From the NCBI GenBank assembly GCA_903915155.1, contig CAIWRU010000023.1, forward strand, positions 1 through 37,123: a stretch of DNA of 37,123 nt, read 5' to 3'. Source of the DNA: an uncultured Mucilaginibacter sp. GTDB taxonomy: Bacteria > Bacteroidota > Bacteroidia > Sphingobacteriales > Sphingobacteriaceae. Made by a program: the position numbers and the translations under genes. This document shows, one piece after another, positions 3,217-30,098 of the stretch (the first letter of the stretch is position 1; each line of letters begins with the position of its first letter). A model generated the notes under the pieces. It searched no databases. It saw only the letters and a list, made by a program, of their open reading frames with translations, and was not told the origin of the DNA.

Positions 3217-4368
3217 ATGAAGAAATTTTTTATACTGGCAGCTATACTTGTTTTTGCCACATGCCAGTCGGTTTTTGCGCAGGTTGACTTTGTGAAGCGC
3301 TTTATAAAGCGCATGTATTTTGATAAGGACAGCAGCAGAAAAAGCAATTTTGTGCTGATACCCGCCCTCGCATCATCGCCGGAAACAGGTGTTGAATTTG
3401 GCGGGGCATCGTTATTTTCATTTTATACCGATACTGCCCGGCACAGCATTACGCGTGTATCAAACCTGTATGGTTATGCCAGCATTACTACAAAAGGCCA
3501 GGAAAAAGTAAGCCTGAACGCATCGTATTGGACACCGCAGAACAAATGGCATTTCATATCGACCATCAGTTATTATAATTTCCCATTTGATTTTTTCGGC
3601 ATTGGCAACAATACACTATTGGCAAACAAAGAAGCAATAGAAGAAAAACGCACAAAATTTAGTTTCGGCGCGCAAACCCTGGTTGCTAAAGATCTTTACG
3701 CGGGCGTTGTAGGCGGCATATTTAAATACTATTACTACTCGGGTAATTTTAATCAAAATTTGGCATTTAAAAATAACCCTGATATACAGAACCACGGAGG
3801 GGGCTCGGCCGTTTACCTTGGCCCCTCTTTAACCTATGATACCCGCAACAATAATACCTATACTACAAAGGGGATAATTATTGATGCCTATTTGAATTTG
3901 ATGCAGGGTATATTTGGAAATAACAGTTATAACGGCGGTTTTTTCAATATTGAATACTCGCAATATTTTGCTTTGAGCAAAGCTTTGGTGCTGGGCTTTG
4001 ACATACAGGAACAAAGTTTAATAGGGGGCCGTTCGCCGTTTTACCTGCTGCCGCAACTGGGTAGTGACGAAATGATGCGCGGTTATTACAATGGCCGTTA
4101 CCGCGACAGGAACTTTATAGGCAGCCAAACAGAATTGAGATACCGTGTAAGTGACCGTTTTGGCTTAGATGCTTTTTTAGGCACAGGCGAGGTGGCACAT
4201 AAAGCCTTTAGCGCCGCGCAATTAAAACCCGACTACGGCGGCGGAGTACGTTACTTTTTTGATACCGAAAAGGGCCTTAGCATAAGGGCGGATTATGGGA
4301 TTGGGCAGAAGCCTGCGGGTGAGAAAAGGGAAAGCGGGTTTTATATTGCGCTGGGAGAGGCTTTTTAA
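3217..4368 (+). CDS. BamA/TamA-family (Omp85-like) outer-membrane beta-barrel protein
   Basis: 383 residues. A signal peptide (about 1-21, cleavage after SVFA) is followed directly by a C-terminal-type 16-strand barrel rich in alternating aromatic and polar residues; there are no POTRA repeats, so the protein is much shorter than BamA. The motif MMRGYYNGRYRDRN (about 287-300) is the (V/I)RG(F/Y) signature of Omp85 loop 6. Near the C-terminus the barrel ends in FYIALGEAF, a typical terminal strand with a final Phe. It sits in the outer membrane; its role could be protein insertion, lipid handling or simple transport, and the sequence does not decide. The start is the ATG at 3217 with no Shine-Dalgarno site. 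The GxxExxY cassette begins immediately after its TAA stop. Confidence 0.85.
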   Translation: MKKFFILAAILVFATCQSVFAQVDFVKRFIKRMYFDKDSSRKSNFVLIPALASSPETGVEFGGASLFSFYTDTARHSITRVSNLYGYASITTKGQEKVSLNASYWTPQNKWHFISTISYYNFPFDFFGIGNNTLLANKEAIEEKRTKFSFGAQTLVAKDLYAGVVGGIFKYYYYSGNFNQNLAFKNNPDIQNHGGGSAVYLGPSLTYDTRNNNTYTTKGIIIDAYLNLMQGIFGNNSYNGGFFNIEYSQYFALSKALVLGFDIQEQSLIGGRSPFYLLPQLGSDEMMRGYYNGRYRDRNFIGSQTELRYRVSDRFGLDAFLGTGEVAHKAFSAAQLKPDYGGGVRYFFDTEKGLSIRADYGIGQKPAGEKRESGFYIALGEAF

Positions 4369-4888
4369 GAACCAGGATTAAACAGATTTTTTGGATTTAC
4401 AGGATGTATTAATAGTTGGTCATCCTAATTTATTATATAGGCTTAAATTTTTTGTTAAAGAGGCGTTTGAATGTTAGTGATTTACTTCCAAAATTAATCA
4501 GTAACCCAATTTGGGTGTTGTACGCTTCCAGATAATTTATAGCTTGTGCTAAATGTACGTCTTCAAGATTTGCTGTTGCTTTTAGTTCAACCATGATTGA
4601 ACCTTCTACAAAAAAATCGACCCTACGTGTCCCTATTTACACTTGTCGATAGTAAATGGGCATTTCCCGTTCCCTGCTAAATGAAAGTTTTTGATGAGCA
4701 AATTCCAACTCAAGTGCATTTTGATATATCACTTCCTGAAACCCACTACCAAGTGAAGAATGCACTTTCATCGCACAACCAATAATCTTATGTGTCAGAT
4801 CATCATTAATTAATCCTTCTGCCATATATTTAGTAAACTATCTTTTTAAATATCCGGTAAATCAAAAAAATCCGTTTAATCCTAGTTC
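4369..4888. mobile_element. GxxExxY cassette bounded by 30-bp imperfect inverted repeats
   Basis: Arms at 4369-4398 (GAACCAGGATTAAACAGATT...) and 4859-4888 (complement GAACTAGGATTAAACGGATT...) match at 27 of 30 positions as inverted repeats and enclose the GxxExxY pseudogene. The left arm starts on the base after the TAA stop of the outer-membrane gene (4368). The right arm runs through the TAG stop of the methyltransferase gene (4882-4884) and supplies it. No transposase is encoded and no target-site duplication is evident. Whether this unit moves, or is a repeat pair that has gathered around a gene, is inference. Confidence 0.55.
4433..4825 (-). pseudogene. GxxExxY family protein, interrupted by one in-frame stop
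   Basis: Reading from ATG (4823-4825) gives MAEGLINDDLTHKIIGCAMK..., with the family motif GFQEVIY (GxxExxY). An in-frame TAA at 4637-4639 ends it after 62 codons. The same frame then continues with IGTRRVDFFVEGSIMVELKA, LEDVHLAQAINYLEAY and LLINFGSKSLTFKRLF to a TAA at 4433-4435, which together give the usual family length of about 125-130 residues. The stop stands where the family normally has a basic residue (YKxVKIGxRRVDF), so AAA to TAA is the simplest change. The family has a PD-(D/E)XK-nuclease-like fold (the DFFVEG...VELKA segment fits) and no settled function; it is often multicopy. Either a true pseudogene or a read-through product. Confidence 0.85.
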
Positions 4889-5670
4889 ATTCTTATTTTG
4901 AAATCCTCCTTCACCTGGCCCTTTCTAAAGTACACCAACCCAATCCAAAACAAATCAACCGTTACGGTTACCTGCGGATGGGCCTTTATTTGTGCCCAGG
5001 CTTCTTTCATGCCTTCGCTCCAGTAGATGTCGTCGAAAATGAGGAGGGTGTTTTCGTGCACTTTGGGTAGGCACCATTCGAAGTATTTGAGGGTGGCATC
5101 TTTTTGGTGGTTGCCATCTACAAACATCAAATCCACTTTATCCAGACTATTAATTATCGTCGGCAGGGTATCGTCGAAATTGCCGGTCACTAAATCAATA
5201 TTATTTAAACCGGCTTTGCTGAATTCGTTTTTTGCTACAGCGGCGGTTTCGGGCGAGCCTTCGAGGGTGTACACTTTGGCGTCGGGCGCGGCTTTTTGAA
5301 GATAGATGGTGGTTACTCCAAGGCAGGTGCCCAATTCAATGATGTTTTTTGGTTGCAGATCGGCGGCGATGCGGTAAAGTAATTGCGCCAGTTTGGGCGG
5401 CTTTAGGGCATGGGCTGCTATGTCGCTTATCTTTTTTTGGCGGTTGTTGTTTACGTGCGAGCCGGCACCAAGGTCGATAATGGTTATGGTTTGGTCATTG
5501 GCCAGTAATTTTTTACGGATTGCCTCAACTTCGGTGTATACTTTTTTTGTGTTCTTATCGTAAATAACAGTACCAACCAGGCGGTAAACAAAGGGTGAAT
5601 GAATGCCGTGGCGGGTTTTTGCGTTAAGCCTGTGTAAAAAAAAATCTTTGGCGAACCTTAAGTTAAACAT
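4882..5670 (-). CDS. Class I SAM-dependent methyltransferase (O-methyltransferase-like)
   Basis: 262 residues. The SAM-binding motif I reads NIIELGTCLGVTTIYL, with the acidic motif II VYTLEGSPE, then LVTGNFDDTLP and VDLMFVDGNHQKDAT, the pattern of the Methyltransf_24/O-methyltransferase group. FDDIYWSEGMKEAW follows and is also typical. No membrane segments or signal peptide, so it is cytoplasmic. The substrate cannot be told. It is convergent with the outer-membrane gene, and its TAG stop lies inside the right inverted repeat of the GxxExxY cassette, which also encodes the last two residues (Met-Asn). The start is the ATG at 5668-5670; homology begins close to it. Confidence 0.85.
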   Translation of the reverse strand: MFNLRFAKDFFLHRLNAKTRHGIHSPFVYRLVGTVIYDKNTKKVYTEVEAIRKKLLANDQTITIIDLGAGSHVNNNRQKKISDIAAHALKPPKLAQLLYRIAADLQPKNIIELGTCLGVTTIYLQKAAPDAKVYTLEGSPETAAVAKNEFSKAGLNNIDLVTGNFDDTLPTIINSLDKVDLMFVDGNHQKDATLKYFEWCLPKVHENTLLIFDDIYWSEGMKEAWAQIKAHPQVTVTVDLFWIGLVYFRKGQVKEDFKIRMN

Positions 5671-29633: not shown

Positions 29634-29745
29634 AATATTTTATTTTTTAAAAGTTGATAATTTTTTGTGTGTCAATCACCCTTATTGGTGTATATGTAAG
29701 CTATGACTACGTGGTTTTTGATGAGGTTACAGGGTGGGTGAAAAA

Positions 29746-29894
29746 AATTGTCTGAACCATGATTTAATAGATTTGAGGATTGCCCTGATTATAGTTGCCG
29801 TTATCATGTTAATCTTTTAATCTGTTAAACGGCGTAGCCCTCTTTAACACCTATAAAAACAATTTATTTGTTAAAAATCATGGTTCAGACAATT
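29746..29894. repeat. 20-bp perfect inverted repeat (TGAACCATGATT family)
   Basis: Arms 29746-29765 (AATTGTCTGAACCATGATTT) and 29875-29894 are exact complements, 109 bp apart. The outer arms resemble the GAACCAGGATT arms of the GxxExxY cassette at 4369-4888; here the inner DNA carries no gene. This is the left part of the gene-free stretch 29634-30163. Confidence 0.75.
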
Positions 29895-29924
29895 GCGTTA
29901 GGGACAGCAGTGTATACCGGCCTT

Positions 29925-29998: not shown

Positions 29999-30098
29999 AG
30001 TTTGCAGTGGGCGGTTGCCGGTTTGCAGTTTGCATCGTACTCATTCACTATTATATATGTATCTAACCGCCCACTGCAAACTGGTAACTGCAAACTGA
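29999..30098. repeat. Inverted repeat with 18-bp perfect ends (GCAGTGGGCGGTT)
   Basis: AGTTTGCAGTGGGCGGTT (29999-30016) and AACCGCCCACTGCAAACT (30065-30082) are exact complements; further GTTTGCAGTTTGC and AACTGCAAACT words surround them. It precedes a weak -7-like box TATCTTTA (30107-30114) for the sigma gene. Confidence 0.7.

Follow-up and report, generated by a model that had tools for sequence, protein, structure and literature searches.

A small gene of the GxxExxY family that lies, together with a pair of inverted repeats, between the stop codons of two convergent genes raises the question of what kind of genetic unit it forms, and whether that unit can spread. Such a locus is present in a stretch of 37,123 nucleotides (hereafter, the window) that corresponds to contig CAIWRU010000023.1 of assembly GCA_903915155.1, derived from an uncultured Mucilaginibacter sp. 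The coordinates of its features are given in Table 1. We know of no settled role for GxxExxY genes.

Table 1. Features of the window that are relevant to the GxxExxY cassette and to the gene-less arm pair.
Feature	Position	Strand	Remarks
Left arm	4369..4405	+	GAACC anchor followed by four GGATT-class words with a 9-nt period
Right arm	4852..4888	-	Inverted copy of the left arm; contains the TAG of the methyltransferase gene in GAACTAGG
GxxExxY (PDDEXK_3, PF13366 / TIGR04256) nuclease pseudogene	4433..4825	-	130 codons plus stop
In-frame TAA breaking the nuclease gene	4637..4639	-	
Outer-membrane protein gene, ORF (name from the first-pass annotation)	3217..4368	+	Stop codon abuts the left arm
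Convergent methyltransferase gene, ORF (name from the first-pass annotation)	4882..5670	-	Stop codon inside the right arm
Gene-less inverted pair, TGATT word class (TTGTCTGAACCATGATT...)	29746..29894		Anchor as at gene-bearing elements elsewhere

The first-pass annotation, made from the sequence of the window, had described two inverted 30-bp arms around a GxxExxY gene, with the TAA of the outer-membrane gene immediately in front of the left one and the TAG of the methyltransferase gene, which runs convergently, inside the right one, and this layout was confirmed. The arms share 27 of these 30 positions and 33 of 37 over their core, the pair runs to 65 nt at 75% identity, and the left arm has 0 mismatches to the arm pattern used in our searches. 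The family assignment also holds, the gene being a direct member of the GxxExxY / PDDEXK_3 family by profile: in a profile search it matched PF13366 with an E value of 2e-37 over positions 2-116 (129.7 bits, curated cut-off 22), and both halves of the broken gene matched TIGR04256. The break itself, a single in-frame TAA, was absent from the first-pass annotation, and the matches in most relatives are free of stops. The pseudogene retains the E, D, ExK and QxxxY residues, so that the break is probably recent. It is the sole PF13366 match in the assembly (3.73 Mb, 222 contigs). Searched against Pfam at E 0.001, the window ORF matched PF13366 only, with no match to a Y1 (HuH) tyrosine transposase. 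The cassette lies between two protein-coding ORFs, outside rRNA, and its ORF is PF13366 and not S23p / PF05635; a known RNA family was excluded for positions 4300-4950, where Rfam gave no match up to E 1. It is predicted to form a hairpin (fold z -5.5). With a tolerance of 3 mismatches, the assembly yields 13 copies of the arm pattern, 11 of them outside the cassette, and 0 of its reversed control, which places the arms beyond chance; a chance inverted repeat was excluded by the reversed, shuffled and control-gene comparisons.

The combination of gene and arms is not particular to the window. In a sample of 61 Mucilaginibacter genomes (the window genome and 60 others, taken from a larger group), GxxExxY genes are common: PF13366 was found in 48 of them, with 1 to 9 matches per carrier genome, fragments included. 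For each locus, 350 bp on each side of the gene were compared, and an inverted match had to exceed the best of 60 shuffles. By this test, 97 of the 104 genus loci obtained among the matches listed, after merging split fragments, are flanked by inverted arms. Six of the seven failing loci (L100, L125, L161, L162, L163 and L167) show word-like arrays by eye, and the seventh (L170) is a fragment in which no such array was seen by eye. The methyltransferase gene, subjected to the same test as a control, scored 0 in 27 genomes. In a wider scan of species genomes, in which the best 80 loci among the matches listed were taken and 79 were testable, arms were found at 68 loci and 11 failed; without the nine loci that repeat genus ones, arms were present at 59 of 70 among the matches listed. 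According to the labels as deposited, the passing loci include metagenome-assembled genomes (MAGs) of Poribacteria (1 of 3), Thiomargarita, Methylomonas, Desulfobulbus, KSB1 and Calditrichaceae, and those labelled Planctomycetota and Spirochaetia fail. Gene and inverted arms thus form a unit, as the first-pass annotation had proposed, and its reservation that other GxxExxY genes might lack arms is not borne out in the genus. The observation in the window exemplifies a more general pattern.

The arms had initially been taken for one 30-bp sequence. They are instead arrays of a word that differs between nuclease lineages: an anchor, commonly [TTGTC]TGAAC, is followed by about four copies of a 4-5-bp word, which is GGATT in the window and TGATT, GAATT, CGAATT or a CRAG type such as CAGAG/CAAAG at other loci. 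A single fixed arm for all GxxExxY genes is ruled out by these differences in word class. The words recur with a period of 9 nt, which accounts for 41% of 641 spacings in the genus and 49% of 468 in the wider set of matches listed; a spacing of 8 nt is second commonest (13% and, in the same wider set of matches listed, 17%). The flanks of the control gene and shuffled flanks showed no peak in word spacing. When the words identified in one arm were used to score the other arm of the same element, agreement was 0.81-0.92 for word letters and 0.52-0.62 for spacer letters, a contrast that is somewhat inflated because the alignment itself is anchored by the words.

The word is paired with the protein. 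A word class could be assigned to 171 of 183 elements, the other 12 being without class. Mapped on the protein tree, it requires 24 changes over 158 labelled rows, against at least 85 in 200 shuffles; removal of repeated loci left 149 rows, with 24 changes observed and at least 84 in the shuffles. Permuting the labels within genomes, a set of 86 genus rows in which 22 genomes hold two or more word classes, gave at least 35 changes, against 15 observed. Hence, word class tracks the lineage of the nuclease, not the genome in which the gene resides. It should be noted that descent of the whole gene-arm unit would also make the word follow the lineage. What speaks for recognition of the word by the nuclease is that the words are retained in distant loci while the spacers are lost: loci whose labels span several phyla still show recognisable words and anchor, although their proteins are only about 61-74% identical to the reference. 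Residues 8, 10 and 12 in the N-terminal helix of the GGATT-class protein L211 differ among the GAATT, TGATT and GGATT lineages and are candidate specificity residues, confounded by descent. A set of possible word-setting residues in the TGAAC-anchored clade (8, 10, 12, 72 and 122) was left unused as evidence for the same reason.

The protein has the features of a nuclease. In an alignment of 101 stop-free, hand-chosen sequences, G28, E31, Y34, D70, E80, K82, Q94 and Y98 are invariant, a residue pattern typical of RecB/Cas4-type PD-(D/E)XK nucleases. A structure model of L211 (mean pLDDT 93.8) adopts the PD-(D/E)XK fold, and its best fold match is SSO0001 (4ic1; Foldseek E 1.6e-4; Z 9.6, rmsd 5.0 over 105 residues), which we take to be a Cas4 protein; 4r5q, titled Cas4, also matched (E 3.8e-3, Z 6.6). 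Other PD-(D/E)XK nucleases, with restriction enzymes among them, reach Z 8.0, within a few units of the best match, and we therefore make no finer family claim; nor does the lack of a family among these matches count as evidence. A search by sequence for a solved homologue returned a single match, at E 0.09. GxxExxY proteins thus share with Cas4 and RecB-like nucleases the fold and the D, ExK and QxxxY residues, but consist of a 130-residue core only, and the L211 model is predicted to contain no DNA-binding domain beyond this nuclease core. Cas4 carries a four-cysteine iron-sulphur cluster; the GxxExxY consensus has one cysteine and, therefore, no such site.

Arms also occur without a gene. 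The pair at 29746-29894 had been regarded as an empty version of the cassette, and it is indeed a real gene-less inverted pair, predicted to form a hairpin (29740-29905, fold z -6.7), but it belongs to the TGATT class and not to the cassette's GGATT class; its anchor is also found at gene-bearing elements in other genomes. A gene-less GGATT pair does exist in the same assembly, on contig C80 (15904 on the plus and 16016 on the minus strand). Since the window nuclease has a premature stop and a second PF13366 match is absent, the 13 GGATT arms of this genome are probably an orphaned population. The genome also holds 34 TGATT-pattern arms and no TGATT gene, and many other genomes likewise carry arms without a cognate gene. 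Copy numbers can be considerable: 36 GGATT arms in G034, which has one gene; up to 97 GAATT arms (in G031); up to 36 CRAG arms; and up to 94 TGATT-pattern arms, a pattern that at three mismatches also catches GGATT-type arms. For 65 of the 97 GAATT places in G031, neighbouring arms within 250 bp form 19 pairs, all of them head-in (+/-), with no reverse or same-direction pair; the gene-less pairs in this genome mostly have 46-106 bp between the two pattern matches. The arms are dispersed between genes: 74 of 76 GAATT or CRAG arms in 40 stretches of three genomes lie outside ORFs of at least 100 aa.

Arm populations are larger where the cognate gene is present. In comparisons whose p values ignore kinship among the genomes, and after subtraction of each gene's own arms, the median number of GAATT copies was 26 in the 19 genomes with the gene and 4.5 in the 42 others (p 4e-4), the corresponding figures for one hand-picked TGATT clade were 27 in 10 genomes and 7 in 51 (p 5e-4), other TGATT-class genes being kept in the comparison group, and CRAG arms were present in 7 of 16 genomes with the gene and in 8 of 45 without it (p 0.05). 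Before removal of the two arms of each gene, the first of these CRAG figures was 12 of 16.

The unit is absent from, or replaced at, sites where relatives carry it. The window's site was read in seven relatives, all of which lack the GxxExxY gene there. Four of them (G026, G029, G009 and G018) have other gene-less palindromes, as judged by eye, two (G019 and G053) have short stretches, and G047, a 63% complete genome with no PF13366 match, carries a left arm of the GGATT class behind the corresponding stop codon. With regard to the suggestion that arms might be fixed at this locus irrespective of the gene, an arm can therefore exist without the gene. Beyond the arm of G047 (L035, 157-194), which lies directly at the stop of the outer-membrane gene, about 1.3 kb of unrelated sequence with another gene takes the place of GxxExxY. 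At a second site, represented by L019 of G017, 149 genomes were searched and 20 element-absent ones were read. Five of these (G025, G088, G006, G076 and G146) have 2-10 bp between the matching flanks, and in the other 15 the gap is filled by palindromes of other families, by a different gene, or by both; G112, whose flanks are 93-94% identical to those of G017, is among the genomes read. Palindromes of the form GTCATTGCGAG...CTCGCAATGAC were seen by eye at this site (L318-L320, L322-L327 and L329) in several species, the window's own included, in the gap that holds the GxxExxY element in others. A third site is occupied by a GGATT element in G026 and by a CRAG element in G029; the flanking proteins agree at 97% (264 residues) and 91% (248 residues), and everything from stop to start codon differs. 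Visual inspection of the L019 site (flanks about 78-94% identical) and of G026 against G029 revealed no target duplication, in sequences from separate species that are too diverged for short ones to be noticed; no excision product was observed either. The 104 genus loci correspond to 37 sites, and 17 of the 19 GAATT-class genes lie at one shared site; the genes thus look sedentary, and the gene-less copies dispersed. Of the proposal that the cassette is a mobile element, the part that stands is a unit with gene-less versions and with sites that lack the gene in relatives; mobility of the gene-bearing unit itself is indicated indirectly.

The cassette had also been proposed to target gene ends. 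This is true for its own class: in a set of 36 GGATT arms (those with loci out of 81 pattern places, both window arms and some paired arms included), the outer neighbour is a gene 3' end in 25 cases, and 20 arms start within 8 bp of a stop codon, as compared with 4.1% of the intergenic positions of the same loci. By eye, the stop codon in G043 is part of the anchor. Placement at stop codons as a general rule is rejected for the GAATT class (3 of 39 within 8 bp; 18 of 39 at gene 3' ends, showing no lean) and for CRAG arms (2 of 35 within 8 bp, 16 of 35 within 30 bp, and 23 of 35 at gene 3' ends). Thus, lying "between two stop codons" characterises the GGATT class.

A similar arrangement surrounds the four-helix-bundle genes of PF05635, a family named for the 23S intervening-sequence protein. 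PF05635 has 12 matches in the window genome and is present in 60 of the 61 genomes. Among 30 loci (L171-L200; the best-scoring matches of 30 genomes), 27 lie within inverted word arrays by the arm test, and the period here is 7 nt, with 70% of 167 spacings at this value and 13% at 14. Word labels assigned by eye require 7 changes, for 8 states, on a tree of 29, as compared with at least 14 in 500 shuffles. The PF05635 arms have the same design as those of GxxExxY, with an unrelated protein and a different pitch.

The arrays and gene-less copies suggest a kind of repeat-spreading system that has gone unrecognised, and the known system that it resembles most in layout and population pattern is that of the REPINs and RAYTs (REPtrons). 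RAYT proteins are held to copy or move REPINs, acting on the repeat as a single-stranded hairpin. As described in the relevant passages of two papers, RAYTs are single-copy, vertically inherited genes in whose presence REPINs are more numerous (PMC8049555), and RAYT genes have on their flanks either the repeats or unrelated inverted ones (PMC3733652). The combination of a low-copy gene between inverted short repeats with dispersed gene-less inverted pairs, more abundant where the gene is present, recurs here: the window arms are two of 13 dispersed copies, the gene-less pairs of G031 are head-in, and the GAATT, TGATT and CRAG arms are more frequent in genomes with the gene. The differences lie in the enzyme, which is a Y1/HuH tyrosine transposase in the case of RAYT and a PD-(D/E)XK nuclease in that of GxxExxY, and in the repeat, a REPIN being a tagged 20-40-bp palindrome and a GxxExxY arm an array of about four words with a 9-nt period. 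The layout and the population pattern match, but the defining enzyme is absent, and the system would hence be REPIN-like in its working without being a member. We lean, with modest confidence, towards such a reading, that is, a two-component, REPIN/RAYT-like system in which a Cas4-like PD-(D/E)XK nuclease takes the place of the Y1 transposase. One component would be a gene of low copy number, sedentary for the most part, that lies between inverted arms and encodes a minimal Cas4/RecB-like nuclease, and the other a population of gene-less inverted arm pairs dispersed between genes. The nuclease, or an oligomer of it, would read its own word array, probably as a hairpin that an inverted pair may extrude in single-stranded DNA during replication, and would cut near the outer anchor; by analogy with RAYTs and REPINs, this cutting could copy or move cognate pairs to new intergenic places.

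Several of these observations can be read in other ways. The strong hairpins predicted in the window, the stop-abutting GGATT arms, the lean of CRAG arms to gene 3' ends and the arm design shared with PF05635 also suit an element that acts at the RNA level, as in 23S rRNA intervening sequences, in which the arms would be mRNA 3'-end hairpins involved in termination, protection or processing and the gene a passenger or an RNA processing factor. We consider this unlikely, since a stem needs complementarity throughout, whereas the spacers have drifted (52-62% agreement) and the words have been kept (81-92%); moreover, a hairpin requires neither an iterated word nor one that differs by nuclease lineage, and the GAATT arms do not lean to gene 3' ends. 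The 23S rRNA intervening sequences themselves have a small ORF inside complementary ends, according to the part of PMC4990558 that deals with them, and PF05635 arms share the word-array design; they differ from the GxxExxY cassette in protein fold, in period (7 instead of 9 nt) and in their location in rRNA. The inverted ends around the gene, seen in the window cassette and its relatives, together with the gene-less versions and the element-free sites, are likewise what a cut-and-paste element would leave, with the arms as terminal inverted repeats, the nuclease as a stand-alone transposase and the gene-less pairs as MITE-like deletion derivatives. This is distinctly improbable in our view: no target duplication was seen, albeit between diverged flanks, G026 and G029 differ over the entire stretch from stop to start codon, carrier genomes have few PF13366 matches (1 to 9), many of them at shared sites, and the model shows a nuclease core with no DNA-binding domain. 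MITEs resemble the gene-less pairs in that they are short, non-coding and intergenic and have inverted ends, but the ends of the GxxExxY system are lineage-specific word arrays.

That the word follows the protein lineage even within genomes, and that arms stand on both sides of the gene, would also be expected of an autoregulatory or addiction cassette, whose arrays would be operators or decoys for the encoded nuclease and whose gene-less arrays would be leftover or protective; dozens of gene-less arms in many genomes, often head-in in G031, are unexpected for operators, and we see only a slight chance for this explanation. Finally, the concentration of GAATT genes at one shared site fits with word and protein having no functional tie and simply being co-inherited as a block, with the periodic arms as decaying sequence. 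This we find hardly credible, given that words and anchor are recognisable across phylum labels, that words are kept between arms where spacers are lost, and that the period differs between two protein families unrelated to each other.

The literature covered, largely outside subscription journals and screened by titles and opening abstract lines, contained no description of such arms for the GxxExxY family or similar systems; the passage on the family in PMC8934634 is unrelated to them, and the literature matches listed for the arm strings were apparently primer lists. The pairing of a nuclease lineage with an iterated word offers a testable substrate for GxxExxY, since a predicted array accompanies each protein and mismatched combinations of word and protein are built-in controls. 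It also provides a hypothesis for the origin of many intergenic palindromes of Bacteroidota, and ties the family of the 23S intervening-sequence protein to a system that follows the same logic at a different pitch. A more tentative extension, which we would entertain without relying on it, is that GxxExxY and, independently, PF05635 proteins are readers of word codes with a pitch of 9 and 7 nt, respectively, each lineage reading a 4-5-bp word of its own in inverted arrays, and that they maintain cognate gene-less palindromes and spread them between genes. In that case, several phyla would harbour a class of repeat-spreading system without known transposase chemistry, which could account for a large share of the intergenic palindromes of Bacteroidota.

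Palindromes of other pitches were noted along the way. The window has a further gene-less one at 30000-30034 and about 30065-30097, some 100 bp from the TGATT pair, composed of heptad words (GTTTGCA GTGGGCG GTTGCCG GTTTGCA GTTTGCA) with, by eye, the 7-nt pitch of the four-helix-bundle genes. In G010 (L330), a heptad palindrome, AGATTTGAGATGTTAGATATGAGATTTGAG, is present in two head-to-tail copies, as would result from duplication in situ. Judged by eye, the gene-less palindrome at the orthologous site of the window cassette in G026 (L032) has a period of 8 nt (GATGTGCA GATGCGTG GATATGCA GATGTGCG) and perhaps represents a third pitch class with a protein of its own.
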